Positions 24,129 to 29,740 of a stretch of 64,000 nt of DNA are shown piece after piece. The stretch lies in the NCBI RefSeq assembly GCF_900013425.1, contig NZ_FBXK01000001.1, positions 93,501 to 157,500 on the forward strand, written 5' to 3'. The notes beneath the pieces were generated by a model. It saw only the letters and a list, made by a program, of their open reading frames with translations, ran no database searches and was not told the origin of the DNA. This DNA is from Sphingobium sp. Z007. Lineage in GTDB: Bacteria > Pseudomonadota > Alphaproteobacteria > Sphingomonadales > Sphingomonadaceae. Numbering within the stretch: position 1 is the first letter of the stretch; each line of letters opens with the position of its first letter. Both the position numbers and the translations under genes were made by a program.

Positions 24129-24540
24129 AATGGACACCCGGCACAACGTGCTATCATCACAGATTGGTCGTGCTTTCGGAATCGCCGGGGCGTGTTATCG
24201 CACCGTCATCAACGTGTGATCGGATTGCCGGGCGTAGCACCGACTCGCGTGATATAGCTCCTTTTGAACCGATTTTTGGGTCGTTAACCCCTCTAATCTC
24301 TCAATAAAATCCCTAATGCCGCGTTACCTCGCAGCGTCTGAAGCGGTTAGAGGTTGAAGGGCTATCAGCCAGCTTTAATCCGTTTGCCTCTCAACCTTCG
24401 CCACGGTTGTCTTTTGATGCAACGCAACAGAGGAAGAACGCCTTCATCAGACCTCCTAAGCAGTGGTTTGACTTTGAGGAGGAATTGAGCGCATAAAACG
24501 CCAACCAGTTTATCGTCATGATTCGGGTATGAGGGGCGCC
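24129..24540. other. Replication-module upstream region (candidate origin)
   Basis: 412 bp without a gene. It holds four 22-bp iterons (24147-24234), then a more AT-rich run (24260-24340) with TTTTTGGG and CAATAAAATCC, and a weak inverted pair, AACCCCTCTAATC (24286-24298) and GGTTAGAGGTT (24345-24355), that might be a ParA/ParB-regulated operator. Promoter of parA expected here. Confidence 0.6.
24147..24234 (+). repeat. Four 22-bp iterons upstream of parA
   Basis: The motif CGTG-Y-[TG]-[AT]-TCR begins exactly every 22 bp: 24147 (CGTGCTATCA), 24169 (CGTGCTTTCG), 24191 (CGTGTTATCG) and 24213 (CGTGTGATCG). Units 2 and 4 also share a downstream GCCGGG. The 22-bp period puts the sites on one helix face, as RepA-bound iterons require. 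The full motif CGTGTTTTCRGAATC recurs downstream of repA. Confidence 0.72.
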
Positions 24541-25734
24541 ATGTCGTTTACCGTCAACACGCTGCGCAACGTCACGACGGCATGCCAGCAAATGCGCGAT
24601 CATATCAAGACGATCGTGTTCCGTCCCGATGCGCACAAAACGCTTGATATCACTTTTGGACCGACGGTAGCGGCCGAACTGATCGGGCGCACGCCGGAGG
24701 CTTTGGCCAAAGCGGAATCCAAAGGGCGTCTGCCCCAGCCCAAGCAGTTGCCCAATGGCCGCCGCTACTACACGCTGGAGGATATGACCCAGATCCGCGA
24801 GGCGCTGGGCATCCATGTGGGCAAGCAACCGGACGAGGATGCTGTCGTGCTGGCGGTGCAGAATTTCAAAGGTGGCGTAGGAAAAAGCACCATCACCAAG
24901 CATCTGGCCGATTATCTCGCGCTGCATGGCTATCGCGTGCTGGTGATCGATTGCGATCCGCAAGCATCCACCACCACCATGTTCGACATCCAACCTGAAA
25001 CGCTGATTGACGACGACCAGACACTCGGCGCGTTCCTCTCGCCGCGCAGCACCTTCAGCAATTTCGCCGAAACCATCCGCGACACGCCCTGGCCGACGAT
25101 CAAGATCGTGCCGTCGAGCCTGGGCCTGCAGGATGCGGAATGGGATTTGACCTCCACCCTGCGCGAAGGCGGGCAGGCGGTAAGGGAAAGTTTGCAGGCG
25201 CTGCGCATCGGTATTGCCAGCGTGACCAAGGATTTCGATGTCATCCTGCTCGACCCGCCGCCAGCCATGGGCTTTCTGGGCCTCAACGTGATGGCGGCTG
25301 CAACCGGATTGCTCATCCCCGTTCCGGCGCGGCAGCTGGACTACCTGTCGACAATCCATTTCATGGACACGATCGCGGACAATATCGAAATTCTCGAACA
25401 AAATGGCACGCCGGTCAATTACGGCTTCATCCGTGTGGTGTGCTCGGCCTTTTCCCCCAGCAAGCCAGGCGAAAATGACATGTGGCGGATCATGCAGGCA
25501 ACCTATGCCGGGCTGTTGCTGGGGCAACCGATATTGGCTTCCGAGGAAATCAAGAACGCTACCCAAGCGTTCCGGTCGATCTATGAATCCAAGCCGTCCG
25601 CATCGCACCAGACCTACATGCGGTGCCGCGATAATCTGGACGCGGTGTTTGGCGAGGTCGTGCAGCAGATACGGCAGCAATGGCCATCGACCAGCCTGAC
25701 CGGTGCCGACGCCAGTGTGAGCGTGGCGGCATGA
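24541..25734 (+). CDS. parA: ParA-type partition ATPase with N-terminal HTH
   Basis: 397 residues from the ATG at 24541 (AGGGG 5 nt upstream; ATG 24529 has no such site). The N-terminal ~100 residues hold a MerR/ParA-type DNA-binding segment (AAELIGRTPEALAKAESKG ... RRYYTLEDMTQIREALG). The deviant Walker A motif KGGVGKST starts at residue 110, Walker A' is VIDCDPQASTT and Walker B VILLDPPPAMG. The large HTH-bearing form (type Ia) usually represses its own operon. The ATGA overlap with parB couples the two. It segregates the replicon. Confidence 0.94.
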   Translation: MSFTVNTLRNVTTACQQMRDHIKTIVFRPDAHKTLDITFGPTVAAELIGRTPEALAKAESKGRLPQPKQLPNGRRYYTLEDMTQIREALGIHVGKQPDEDAVVLAVQNFKGGVGKSTITKHLADYLALHGYRVLVIDCDPQASTTTMFDIQPETLIDDDQTLGAFLSPRSTFSNFAETIRDTPWPTIKIVPSSLGLQDAEWDLTSTLREGGQAVRESLQALRIGIASVTKDFDVILLDPPPAMGFLGLNVMAAATGLLIPVPARQLDYLSTIHFMDTIADNIEILEQNGTPVNYGFIRVVCSAFSPSKPGENDMWRIMQATYAGLLLGQPILASEEIKNATQAFRSIYESKPSASHQTYMRCRDNLDAVFGEVVQQIRQQWPSTSLTGADASVSVAA

Positions 25735-26747
25735 GCCGGCGGTCCCTGATTAGCGAAGCTCTGGCATCCGCGCCGAGCGAGCCGGCGGTCCAGTCTGATG
25801 CGGCGGCGGCGGACGCCGCAGCCGGGCGCGTCAATTTCACCAACAAGCGGCTGGAAGCCTTTGGCGAGGCGGCACGGATCGTGAAGCGGCCGACCATAAG
25901 GTTGAAGCCCGCCGAATGTTCGATCTGGCCGGGCAATGCGCGCGACTATACGTTGCTGGACGAGCATAGGTTGCGCAGCCTGATCGATTCAATCCTGGCG
26001 GAAGGCGGCAACCGGATTCCCGCGGTGGTGCGGCGCACGCCCAATGGCCCCCTGCCCTATGAACTGGTAACGGGGACGCGGCGGCACTGGGCGATCAACT
26101 GGCTCAACACCAATCACTATCCCGACATCGACCTGATCGCGATCATCGAGGATCTGGACGATGAGGCCGCGTTCCGACTGGCCGATATAGAGAATCGTGA
26201 ACGCGAGGATATTTCCGACTTGGAGCGTGGCCTGAATTATAAGGCCGCGGTCGATCGCTTCTATGGCGGCGTGCAGCTGCGAATGGCGGAGCGGCTGAAA
26301 ATCTCGAAGTCGCAACTATCGCGTTATATCGCGCTTACCGAGATACCGCCCTTTCTGGTCAGCGCTTTCCACTCGCCGATGGATCTGCAAGCCAAATATG
26401 GTGAGCGGCTCCTGCCCATCCTGCGCGATCCGGCTAGCCGGGCAAAGCTGGAGGCCGCGGCGGATCAGATTGCGTCCGAACAAAGTTTCCGCCGTTCGGG
26501 CGACGAACAGCCGATCAGCGGCGTCGAGGTCATGGGGCGATTGCTCAAGGCCGTGACGGTAAAAGGCCGCGTGCAGAAGGCGTCGATCGCAGCCGGCAAC
26601 GGCAAGGCGATCGGGGAAGTGGTGAAGGACCAACAAAAGATATTGACGCTGTCGCTGACGCCATCCGACCTATCGACCGATGCGATATTAGAGGCGTTGC
26701 GGCCCGTGATTGACGCGGCGCGTATTCGGAGCGCGAAACGGCGGTAA
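25731..26747 (+). CDS. parB: ParB-type centromere-binding protein
   Basis: 338 residues. The CTP-binding ParB/Spo0J domain includes VTGTRRHWA near residue 115 and ADIENREREDISDLERGLNYK near 155; the HTH follows as RMAERLKISKSQLSRYIALTEIP. The C-terminal third is variable. It overlaps parA by 4 nt and precedes repA by 65 bp. It should bind a parS palindrome nearby; the 16-bp palindrome at 28100-28115 is a candidate. Confidence 0.94.
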   Translation: MSRRSLISEALASAPSEPAVQSDAAAADAAAGRVNFTNKRLEAFGEAARIVKRPTIRLKPAECSIWPGNARDYTLLDEHRLRSLIDSILAEGGNRIPAVVRRTPNGPLPYELVTGTRRHWAINWLNTNHYPDIDLIAIIEDLDDEAAFRLADIENREREDISDLERGLNYKAAVDRFYGGVQLRMAERLKISKSQLSRYIALTEIPPFLVSAFHSPMDLQAKYGERLLPILRDPASRAKLEAAADQIASEQSFRRSGDEQPISGVEVMGRLLKAVTVKGRVQKASIAAGNGKAIGEVVKDQQKILTLSLTPSDLSTDAILEALRPVIDAARIRSAKRR

Positions 26748-26812
26748 GAGTGGGCGACGCTGGAATGAAAAGCTGAAAATAGGGAAATAACCTATATATT
26801 TCAGTTATTTAT

Positions 26813-28102
26813 GTGATTTTCCCCCTGGGGGGACGGCGAAAATGGGATGGCACAGTGGAGAATGAGGGCGAACTTAAGACGGCGTTGAAAGAGCGCAAGG
26901 TCCAGTTCGAAATGTTCTTCACCCTGCCCGATTTCAGTGACATTTCGCTACGCGACTATCAAGAGACGATGCAGCGTCCCTTCTTTAGTTTGTCGAAGCG
27001 CAAACGGGTCAAGCCAATCGAATATGTCAGCCCCGACAGGTCGGTGACCGTGCATGTGTCGGCCAATCCGACCTATGGCATGGCGACCATCTGGGACGCG
27101 GACATCATGATCTATCTGGCGTCGCACCTGAACGAATTGCGCGAGCGCGGGCTGAACGATCTTTCGCCCGTCATTCGGCTCCAGCCGGGCGACCTGCTTA
27201 AGCGCATCTGCTGGGGCACAAGCGGCCGGGCTTATGAGCGGTTGGTGAGCGCGCTGGATCGGTTACAGGCGACGACGATCAAAACCAATATCCGCGCCAG
27301 CGCAAAGAGCCGGGAGACGACCTTTTCCTGGATCGACAGCTACACCCATTTGGTGGACGAACGCACGCAACGATCGCTGGGCATGGAAATCACCCTGTCC
27401 AAATGGTTCTTCGATGGGGTGATGGACAAGCGCAACGTGCTCGCCATATCGCCGCTCTATTTCGAGATCACCAGCGGATTAGGCAAGTGGCTCTATCGTG
27501 CGTCGCGCAAACATGCGGGCGGCAATGGCGCGGATGGCTTCGTTATCGGGTTCGAAACCCTGCATCAGAAGAGCGGCAGCGAAAGCAGCTACCCGGTGTT
27601 CAAGCGCAAGTTGCTCGACCTGGCCCGTGCCAATGAATTGCCGGACATCAGCCTGGAAGTGCTCAACGCGGACAGTATGAAGCCCAAGATGCAGATGGTG
27701 ATGCGGCGGCATATGGCCGAACGACGGCGCACCCGGCGCGCGCCTCCCCTGCCCTCCCCGACTGATGCTATGGCAGACAATGACGGCGACGCAATGATCG
27801 ATCCGGGTCAGGCCATCAGGCTGATCGCGCAGGCGGCTGGCGGACTGCGCAGCCCGGGTGCGGATAAAAGCAAGGCGCGGCGTGCGCCTGTCATGAGCGG
27901 TCGCGCGAGCGAGATACTGGATGCTGAAGTGCACGACGCGATCCGCAGCGATTTCCCTGGTTGGGACTATGACGAGCTGCTGCGTCGTTTCGACGCGTTT
28001 CTGGGCGCCAATCCACATGAACTGCCGCGCAACTATTCCAAGCGCTTCTATGGCTTCGTCAAAGAACATCACCGCCGCAACAAATATCAGCTGCGGTCCT
28101 GA
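26813..28102 (+). CDS. repA: Replication initiator RepA (RPA family)
   Basis: 429 residues with the GTG at 26813; GTG 26855 is an alternative since neither has a strong ribosome binding site. PFFSLSKRKRVKPIEYVS, MATIWDADIMIYLASHLNE and LGKWLYRASRKHAG are blocks of the RPA-type initiators of alphaproteobacterial plasmids and chromids. Basic, Pro-rich linker (ERRRTRRAPPLPSP) near residue 305, then a C-terminal segment with FPGWDYDELLRRF. It follows parAB in the parA-parB-repA order common in sphingomonads (distinct from repABC). It probably binds the iterons on both sides of the operon. Confidence 0.9.
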   Translation: MIFPLGGRRKWDGTVENEGELKTALKERKVQFEMFFTLPDFSDISLRDYQETMQRPFFSLSKRKRVKPIEYVSPDRSVTVHVSANPTYGMATIWDADIMIYLASHLNELRERGLNDLSPVIRLQPGDLLKRICWGTSGRAYERLVSALDRLQATTIKTNIRASAKSRETTFSWIDSYTHLVDERTQRSLGMEITLSKWFFDGVMDKRNVLAISPLYFEITSGLGKWLYRASRKHAGGNGADGFVIGFETLHQKSGSESSYPVFKRKLLDLARANELPDISLEVLNADSMKPKMQMVMRRHMAERRRTRRAPPLPSPTDAMADNDGDAMIDPGQAIRLIAQAAGGLRSPGADKSKARRAPVMSGRASEILDAEVHDAIRSDFPGWDYDELLRRFDAFLGANPHELPRNYSKRFYGFVKEHHRRNKYQLRS

Positions 28103-28115: not shown

Positions 28116-28723
28116 ACGTGTTTTCGGAATCACGTGATTGTGATGTGCGGTTCCCCTACCCTGTCGCAACGCATTGGTCCGATCTTGCAAGCGCATAGCC
28201 GTAAACGCTGTAAAAGCGTGGATATGACAGCCCGGCTGGGCGATGGGCATATGTCTGTCGTGCATTAACAATGGCGCGACGATAGAGACCGGTACGATTC
28301 TGAAAACACGATTAACGGGGTTATTGCGCCTTGGTACGTCCCCTGCCCTGCTCCGCTTTTCTCTTATTGCTGGCGCGTCCAGCTTAGAAACAGCCTTCGA
28401 CATCGGGCTGCGACGTGTTTTCAGAATATCGATATTATGGGCGGCCAAGGCCAATATGTATCGGGATCTTCGTCTGGGGCGACATCTCGAATGCATCTGG
28501 AAATCGCCGATGTGATCCTCTTAGAGCTTGATTTCTATCGTTGAGCGCTAGGATCAACGGAGATCGTCATGACGTATCCGAACAGGCCGGTTATAAGAAC
28601 AAAGACGGAAACCGAATATAGAGGCTGTAGGACCGCCTCTGAAGGCCGCGCTGGTCTCAGCCTACGATCCCGTATTGCGCGCGACAAATCGCGCTCAGTG
28701 ACCCGCTGGCGCGGTCGACATTT
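28103..28723. other. Region downstream of repA with iteron copies, no gene supported
   Basis: About 620 bp. CGTGTTTTC[GA]GAAT occurs at 28117-28131 (plus), 28296-28310 (minus) and 28414-28428 (plus), the second and third in inverted orientation. A short hairpin CGTTGA...TCAACG lies at 28540-28560. Short open frames here show no recognisable protein pattern. Likely part of the replication/incompatibility region. Confidence 0.6.
28117..28431. repeat. Three further iteron copies CGTGTTTTCRGAAT downstream of repA
   Basis: Copies at 28117-28131 (+), 28296-28310 (-) and 28414-28428 (+) share CGTGTTTTC, a purine and GAAT. They match unit 2 of the upstream array (CGTGCTTTCGGAATC, 24169-24183) at 14 of 15 positions for the first copy. 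Unlike the upstream set they are widely spaced and mixed in orientation, as handcuffing or copy-control sites are. Confidence 0.7.
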
Positions 28724-29740
28724 TCAATCACGGGACCAGAAGTCGGCGATGTCGGGGTCAATAAGCGGATCTGGCGATGCCGCTGTGCGAGGCGCATGAC
28801 TTACTGGAATAGTATAGCTGCGATAGCTGCTCTGTCCCGATCGTTCCAGCAACAGTCCCGCGTCGGTCGCGATCCCCAATAATTTGATTGCGCCGGCGGA
28901 GGTCAGGCCCAGTTGATCGGCTACTAGCCGGCTGCTGATGGCAGGCCGGGACATTGCCAACATCAAGACGTCCTTCAGGCGACCAGGGCGACGCCGTGAC
29001 GCGATATAAGCCGCGGCGCGTCCCGCATAGGTGCGCAGGCGTATTTCCTGGTCGAGATGGTTATGAGCGCCCACGGCTATGGCCCGAAGCCATAGACGGT
29101 CGAACTGCGCGCGGTCCGCGATCTTCCAAGCCGCCGCGCCGGTTTGAAAACCCAAGGCGGCGAGACCGCCGAAGGAGGCATCCCATCGCCCCGGACCGTA
29201 GCGATCGCCGATCAGGAAGCTCGCCACGGCGTCGCCACGGCCGATGGGCGACTGGCGTCGCCACGCCAGAGCAATGCGCGCGGCATGAAGGAGAGGCGGG
29301 GAGGGGGGCAGGGCGGCGGCCTCCGCCTGCCACTGCGCCACACGCTGGCGGACATCCGCAAGCGGAACGCCGAAGGGTGTCCATGGATCAGCGTTGGCAG
29401 GGACGTCCTGTACTCCCAGCCAATCGAGCAGGCCGACATTGTCGTCGCGTAATGTATCAAGCGTTATTGGCGCGCCGACAGCTTGCCGCCAATGGGTCAG
29501 GTCGAAGGATGCGCCGCTGACACGGCCCCGGCCGTCGACGGTGAACGCGTCCGCATCGATCGATGTGGCATCGATCCATGCCAGCGCTTGGCGTTCGGCG
29601 ATGAAGCATCGTATCTTCCAGGGTCGGCGCACGGGACTGAGACGTCGTCGCTCCTCGATCCGCACCAGCGCCGCCTGCGCGTCCGCGTAATGGGATAGGA
29701 GGCCATCATGTATATCCGGGTCGTAGCGGGTATATGGCAT
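28724..29740 (-). CDS. DUF1612-like HTH protein linked to replication modules
   Basis: 338 residues from the ATG at 29740 (the longer reading starts with TTG). The first ~200 residues contain YTRYDPDIHDGLLSHYADAQAALVRIEERRR and RPWKIRCFIAERQALAWIDA, resembling the DUF1612 proteins found beside rep genes in rhizobia; the last ~90 hold a winged-helix segment (GRLKDVLMLAMSRPAISSRLVADQLGLTSAGAIKLLGIATDAGLL). Convergent to repA with the iteron region between. Function unknown; a role in plasmid maintenance is inferred only from position. Confidence 0.65.
   Translation of the reverse strand: MPYTRYDPDIHDGLLSHYADAQAALVRIEERRRLSPVRRPWKIRCFIAERQALAWIDATSIDADAFTVDGRGRVSGASFDLTHWRQAVGAPITLDTLRDDNVGLLDWLGVQDVPANADPWTPFGVPLADVRQRVAQWQAEAAALPPSPPLLHAARIALAWRRQSPIGRGDAVASFLIGDRYGPGRWDASFGGLAALGFQTGAAAWKIADRAQFDRLWLRAIAVGAHNHLDQEIRLRTYAGRAAAYIASRRRPGRLKDVLMLAMSRPAISSRLVADQLGLTSAGAIKLLGIATDAGLLLERSGQSSYRSYTIPVSHAPRTAASPDPLIDPDIADFWSRD

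Follow-up and report, generated by a model that had tools for sequence, protein, structure and literature searches.

The four 22-bp repeats that stand upstream of parA in the 64,000-nucleotide stretch of Sphingobium sp. Z007 analysed here (the window) are in all likelihood the iteron set of a chromid's replication origin (oriV), bound by the RPA-type initiator, Rep, of the same replicon, and from the comparison of related sequences their position is best explained as a derived relocation from a site downstream of rep. The array starts 18 bp past a carboxylesterase gene and ends 306 bp short of parA, and the cognate initiator gene is present, with the only PF10134 match on the 1.17-Mb contig found 2.6 kb from the array and scoring 215 bits against a gathering cut-off of 27 (Table 1). 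The contig that contains the window, C1, is 1,165,775 bp long and one of seven that make up a 4.94-Mb genome.

Table 1. Features of the array, the parA-parB-rep cassette and its flanks, with positions in the window; the footprint alignment comprised 20 loci of the window's clade.
Feature	Position	Strand	Basis
Iterons, putative Rep-binding part of oriV; four direct repeats CGTGNNWTC(N13) in exact 22-bp phase	24147..24234	+	Sequence, conservation
GACTC element, +29 from the start of unit 4	24242..24246	+	Position conserved across both clades
AT-rich block TTAACCCCTCTAATCTCTCAATAAAATCCCTAATG, putative DNA unwinding element	24284..24318	+	Conserved in the window's clade; sister clade similar in offset and words
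parA promoter region with inverted repeat GGTTTGACTTT...AAACGCCAACC, putative operator	24465..24506	+	Footprint alignment
parA, ParA-type ATPase (predicted start)	24541..25734	+	Pfam AAA_31
parB	25731..26747	+	SopB_HTH above cut-off, ParB_N just below
Inverted repeat CTGAAAATA...ATATTTCAG before rep, putative rep operator	26773..26804	+	Footprint alignment
GC-rich imperfect palindrome TTTTCCCCCTGGGGGGA between parB and rep, parS candidate	26817..26833	+	Alignment, palindrome scan
rep, RPA-type replication initiator (predicted GTG start)	26855..28102	+	PF10134, E 1.1e-63
Rep-type site CGTGTTTTCGGAATCA	28117..28132	+	Beside rep
Inverted Rep-type site CGTGTTTTCAGAATCG	28295..28310	-	Core comparison
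Rep-type site CGTGTTTTCAGAATAT	28414..28429	+	Core comparison
GGGNAGGG (KOPS) polarity flip, - to +	28341..29305	.	Octamer scan

The CGTG units that a first-pass annotation of the window had placed at 24147, 24169, 24191 and 24213 on the forward strand, in steps of exactly 22 bp, are borne out by the letters, which read in order CGTGCTATCA, CGTGCTTTCG, CGTGTTATCG and CGTGTGATCG. The CGTGYTWTCG-like core proposed for them is exact in two units and carries one mismatch in the other two, and CGTGNNWTC fits all four. Since the repetition is confined to the short core, the array went unreported by a tandem-repeat finder and an ungapped repeat search. Single cores were not over-represented in the window (22 at no more than one mismatch against 16.7 expected, a count reached by 13 of 100 shuffles), a result that would suit a chance alignment of CGTG words, and the genome-wide count was uninformative, the backward control (39) being commoner than the core (26). 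The phased arrangement is another matter: three CGTGNNWTC in 22-bp phase occurred in none of 60 first-order Markov simulations of the window, and a look-elsewhere test for any 4-mer present four times at one period of 18 to 25 found 5 cases in the window, where the simulations gave 0.3 on average and 2 at most. When 397 genomes sampled from the family were searched, the three-unit pattern matched eight, all with an RPA-type rep on the same stretch, and the backward-read pattern matched none; eight is a lower bound, since the strict pattern misses arrays with one departing unit. The probability that we leave to chance is negligible, this reading being ruled out by the conservation of the array, with the simulations and the reversed control in addition.

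That conservation became apparent when the search for the same array in relatives, which the first-pass annotation had suggested, was carried out on 48 collected loci with a related Rep, plus G001, RAC03 and V4. Four units in exact 22-bp phase were found in all 22 readable loci of the window's clade (the window and 21 relatives), each time 394-433 bp upstream of parA; the 23rd member, L014, stands outside the array counts as its contig starts inside parA. All four units were strict CGTGNNWTC in 18 of these 22 loci, and one unit departed in the other four. With identical arrays collapsed (22 to 20, for this figure only), mean information was 1.79 bits at core positions 1-9 against 0.65 at positions 12-22. 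Phase and core are kept as the spacers drift, which fits sites that proteins occupy along one helical face.

The array does not stand alone. Counted from the first base of unit 4, GA[AC]TC occurs at +29 in 16 of 19 origins of the window's clade and in 25 of 26 origins of the sister clade, and in both clades an AT-rich block follows about 140 bp past the array start, so that at the level of sequence the iterons adjoin the AT-rich region expected of an origin. In the sister clade (Novosphingobium, Sphingopyxis, Blastomonas and others), the four-unit array, its units scored with a looser pattern, was located no more than 2.5 kb downstream of rep in 26 of 27 loci, L038 being the miss; two further loci of the 29 were left out of the counts, one with a broken Rep match (L044) and one on a contig that ends inside rep (L046). 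No array was found upstream of parA in this clade in the 460 bp and 1200 bp inspected. Because GA[AC]TC and the AT block keep matching offsets in both clades, the array of the window appears to be part of an origin module homologous to that of the sister clade and placed elsewhere. The clades differ in DnaA boxes, which are a usual, not a defining, neighbour of iterons: boxes with no more than one mismatch to TTATCCACA lay near the array in 25 of 26 sister-clade origins versus 2 of 19 in the window's clade (19 being the number of loci, here and for GA[AC]TC, with the near-duplicates L004, L012 and L083 left out). Matches to TTWTNCACA or NTATCCACM were present near 18 of the 26 sister-clade arrays. 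In the window's clade, no exact box was found from 600 bp before parA to rep (22 of 22 loci) or in the kilobase after rep (23 of 23).

On the Rep tree, the window's clade (23 loci) was monophyletic with a support of 0.976 and the sister clade (27) with 0.845; a group with Rep about 55% identical and the locus L099 (41%) fell outside both. Four units in phase lie downstream of rep in three of the five loci of the 55% group, the other two have cores downstream of rep of which only two are in exact 22-bp phase, and L099 has three units in phase, again downstream of rep. Taken together, the tree and the apparent module homology make a single relocation of the origin module in the ancestor of the window's clade the simplest account. 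Since two blocks can follow each other in only one way around a circle, the move may equally be described as the entry of cargo DNA into another gap in a small ancestral replicon circle.

Small plasmids with an RPA-type rep bear on the identity of the protein that binds the core. Eight of ten such plasmids carry at least three CGTGNNWTC within 700 bp upstream of rep, mostly with a group-specific core tail, ACCCA or ACACA, and the remaining two (L169 and L170) carry the repeat CGTCATTTC there instead, possibly through a specificity switch of Rep. The ten were picked by DNA similarity to L097 and represent one sub-family, not ten independent cases; L164 was covered as a whole plasmid and the others up to 2.5 kb on each side of the match. 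A ParA-type gene is annotated beside rep in these plasmids, and a ribbon-helix-helix protein in L165, L166, L169 and L170, and the ParB of the window had no match at E 1e-3 in the ten stretches or in L097 and L098. The presence of the core with RPA rep on plasmids that lack a match to this ParB makes Rep the likely binder. The core is not universal for the RPA family, since it is missing from the two plasmids above and since a group with Rep about 45% identical had no phased CGTG array in any of 15 stretches (L127, L128 and L130-L142; L128 starts at rep and two stretches contain runs of N). No exact tandem 8-mers were found near rep in this group, L143 or L080, two stretches being confounded by N runs; the contig of L128 has its other end in L129, which contains neither rep nor a chain. 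For Rep itself, in which two winged-helix domains as in Rep_3 would be expected of an RPA initiator, a search with Rep3_N gave no match to the protein of the window at E 1e-3 and weak matches above the cut-off in two of five relatives or small plasmids scanned, a PDB sequence search with the Rep alignment returned no matches at E<=10, and the AlphaFold model (mean pLDDT 51) was too poor to use. The conserved phase, the apparent homology of the module to that of the sister clade and the company of the core with RPA rep on plasmids support, as far as sequence can, the interpretation already offered in the first-pass annotation, namely initiator-bound iterons, with the RPA-type Rep as the initiator.

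The same annotation had put the array upstream of parA and not beside repA. The position stands, with the array 2.6 kb from rep, but "not next to repA" is half the picture because further Rep-type sites adjoin rep. Three strong copies of the core, CGTGTTTTCRGAAT, which had been overlooked, follow rep at 28117(+), 28297-28310(-) and 28414(+), and at least one such core was present within 620 bp downstream of rep in 22 of 23 loci of the clade; in the exception, L010, part of whose sequence is N, the nearest core is at +805. Control sites are known in P1 and F as incA and incC, and by analogy the sites at 28117-28429 may play such a part. The inverted repeat before rep (26773-26804) has TTTCAG in common with the Rep-type sites, and we offer as a suggestion only that it could be an autorepression operator, as where Rep represses its own gene.

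The neighbourhood of the par operon raises two further readings of the array, each of which we rejected as the main explanation. A centromere (parS) bound by ParB would suit an array that adjoins the par operon, and tandem-array centromeres exist, such as sopC of F; we nevertheless consider it extremely improbable, as the units are not palindromic and the core is found on plasmid stretches with RPA rep and without a match to the ParB of the window. A palindromic parS candidate with clade-specific letters, moreover, lies between parB and rep. It was picked by the palindrome scan in 12 of 18 loci of the window's clade, and where the scan picked something else (L079, L001, L003, L009, L011 and L018) the aligned block is still visible; a TCCCACGCGTGGGA-like palindrome occupies the same place in all 27 sister-clade loci. 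That the array serves as an operator of parA, to which ParA or a regulator of the host would bind, is scarcely more probable than the centromere. The distance of about 300-400 bp to parA and a 22-bp phasing that suits co-operative binding on one face would agree with it, but parA of the sister clade has no array in the 460 bp and 1200 bp inspected upstream, the array there being downstream of rep, and the conserved inverted repeat at the parA promoter, which was also seen before parA in the three sister-clade sequences inspected, is the better operator candidate.

The parB-rep gap of the 45% group also contains palindromes, GTTTCCCCGGGGAAAC and variants, in all 12 loci examined. In L127, L131-L136 and L138-L142 they are GTTTCCCCGGGGAAAC-like or GTTTCCTNNAGGAAAC-like and number one to three per locus; they are clear parS candidates of another RPA replicon group.

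Replication polarity was examined through KOPS. The octamer GGGNAGGG is the KOPS word, which orients FtsK; KOPS on large replicons are described in PMC13342612 and PMC11724359. This octamer was the most strand-polar word of its shape on these replicons (z 7.6 among 8187 words near the centre, next best 4.1; z 6.3 among 12843 words further out, next best 3.8), and on the chromosome, C5, it flipped between 2.825 and 2.97 Mb, near the single canonical parS at 2,827,211, as expected of KOPS. At the rep locus, the counts of '+' to '-' octamers were 39:15 on the right and 9:47 on the left in RAC03, 40:6 and 20:34 in V4, and 53:11 and 30:18 on the window's own contig, where the left arm is '-' only near the locus. 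Octamers are densest within about 20 kb of the flip, RAC03 having 18 and 20 per 20 kb there versus 1-9 in the other 18 stretches. The 16S genes of RAC03 and V4 point away from the rep locus on both sides, as do the tRNA genes flanking the locus on C1 (33185-, 162759+ and a third at 744614+) and on contig C1 of G001 (20-, 104573+). The KOPS flip and the outward 16S and tRNA genes together put the centre of the replicon in the par-rep cassette, clearly in RAC03 and V4 and locally in the window.

In the sampled stretches of the window's contig, '-' octamers predominate from its first base up to 121.8 kb and '+' octamers from 122.8 kb onwards, as far as its other end, so that no terminus flip is visible and the arms look very unequal, for which an inversion or an offset dif could be responsible. 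In the 45% group, KOPS flips near the parB-rep border or in the 5' half of rep in most scanned loci.

GC skew gave no consistent pattern over 560 kb of C1 in 40 stretches plus the 64-kb window. One-sided P values for a flip at the array were 0.95 on the window's own contig and 0.90 in RAC03 (no flip in either) and 0.04 in V4 (weak), and GC skew was dropped as an origin test, being uninformative on C1 and RAC03 and weak on V4. One sampled stretch, G000:C1:740001-748000, had a G+C of 0.393 versus 0.562-0.661 in the other 19 of its sample and is probably acquired DNA.

Within the cassette, the KOPS centre and the array do not coincide. In the window, the switch from '-' to '+' falls between octamers at 28341 (the last '-' ahead of it) and 29298 (the first '+'), a little past the end of rep and 4 kb away from the array, and in 21 other loci of the clade the first 4 kb from the array start held 73 '-' octamers and no '+'. 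A shuffle of synonymous codons in the three genes of 22 loci gave an expectation of 1.2 '+' and 12.1 '-', against 0 and 70 observed. Much of the '-' signal between the array and the end of rep is protein-driven or shared with the sister clade, and since the octamers of the par-rep genes are partly common to that clade, polarity may lag behind the move, and the KOPS pattern may then be a remnant from the time when the origin lay at its former place. Four intergenic KOPS columns between array and parA, all '-', occur in one or two loci each; they look young, a hint that the polarity centre is still being maintained downstream of rep. In sister-clade loci, KOPS flips close to where rep ends, in many cases some hundreds of bases ahead of the array (L037 has no sensible flip), so KOPS centre and array are not exactly coincident there either.

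The most substantial rival takes its strength from this pattern. The array could be a Rep-binding control locus of the incompatibility type, with replication still starting downstream of rep at the +,-,+ sites of 28117-28429, which are the more uniform copies of the core; the KOPS centre of the window's clade falls there, and that of the sister clade close to where rep ends. An alignment of 440 bp past rep shows no conserved AT-rich block, however, the kilobase there lacks an exact DnaA box throughout the clade as noted above, and it is the array that is accompanied by GA[AC]TC and the AT block of the origin module. The KOPS argument itself is weakened by the possible lag of polarity behind the move. 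We therefore judge a control locus unlikely, though well ahead of the centromere and the parA operator, and retain the array as the iteron set of oriV.

As an origin, the array would work as follows. Monomers of the RPA-type Rep would bind the four repeats, one part of each Rep contacting CGTGNNWTC and another part the more variable 3' half, and the 22-bp phase, about two helical turns, would stack Rep on one face of the DNA. Bound Rep is predicted to open the AT-rich block on the 3' side (24284-24318), where the helicase would load. The three stronger sites at 28117-28429 would probably exert control, by titrating Rep or by pairing with the array, and ParA and ParB would segregate the replicon from the palindromic parS between parB and rep. 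From these elements we infer Rep binding, melting, the control role of the downstream sites and a single move of the module, which left its place downstream of rep for one upstream of parA and lost its DnaA boxes. We propose, tentatively and with more doubt than belief, that in jumping the parA-parB-rep cassette and shedding its DnaA boxes the origin gave rise to a megabase-scale alphaproteobacterial iteron chromid that starts without origin-bound DnaA, its KOPS centre having stayed downstream of rep. If this is true, the clade is a natural experiment in which the opening of replication and the polarity centre that orients FtsK are separated by about 4.3 kb.

The type of replicon can be judged from its gene content and from complete relatives. 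A search for RepC (PF03428), by which a repABC replicon would be recognised, came up empty in four of four genomes or records. Within the genome of the window, Rep3_N was found only on C2 and C7 and a strong DnaA match (E 1.2e-54) only on C5; C1 has DnaA-type matches of lower strength (E 7.7e-9 or worse), all to short frames, which we take to be probably transposon ATPases. The complete relatives, RAC03 pBSY17_1 (893 kb) and V4 (1,248 kb), carry two 16S genes each, which makes chromid a fair word for the replicon type; a 16S search had no match in the window's own genome or in G001, perhaps owing to masking. No description of the array or of CGTG iterons in sphingomonad chromids was found in the open-licence papers searched, mostly represented by the openings of their abstracts.

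The origins of F, P1 and pPS10 are of the iteron type with the same general layout. The likeness extends to plasmid origins of the RK2 type, which, in the sections of PMC4980987 at hand, combine direct repeats in constant helical phase, an AT-rich neighbour, a cognate Rep and extra repeats near rep with a possible part in control, as in the window. The window differs from these four in its RPA-family (PF10134) initiator, in an array beyond the par operon, 2.6 kb from rep, and in having no DnaA boxes. Within Sphingobium, the RepA of pPDL2/pUT1 has similarity to both RPA and Rep-3, its oriV resembles that of the window in having an RPA-family Rep with iterons and AT-rich sequence, and a repA-oriV mini-replicon of this system replicated (PMC3516476, in the portion available). 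Unlike the window, pPDL2 is 37 kb long and has its iterons directly upstream of repA, a dnaA box and, in the same portion of PMC3516476, no reported parB; the two are likened by layout, not by iteron letters.

Vibrio chromosome 2, an iteron chromid with the initiator RctB, and the repABC chromids are likewise second chromosomes with plasmid-type origins, as described in the accessible part of a 2018 review (PMC6090056), but the initiator of the window is of the RPA family and RepC was not found in its genome. The same part of the review holds that large alphaproteobacterial replicons are usually repABC, with iteron origins only in small plasmids, and suggests that iteron chromids were unable to give Alphaproteobacteria the tight control needed (PMC6090056). 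A 1.17-Mb replicon and two relatives (0.89 and 1.25 Mb), all apparently driven by an iteron origin with an RPA-type Rep and without RepC, contradict this picture, as far as it is laid out there, and make it testable. A further comparison is with the RPA replicons of Novosphingobium, Sphingopyxis and Blastomonas (among L019-L045 and L048), which share with the window the parA-parB-rep order, the array of four 22-bp units, GA[AC]TC and the AT block, and differ from it in an array downstream of rep and, in most, DnaA boxes. The apparent move of the origin and the loss of DnaA boxes provide a before-and-after pair for the roles of DnaA and of origin position in the control of chromids.
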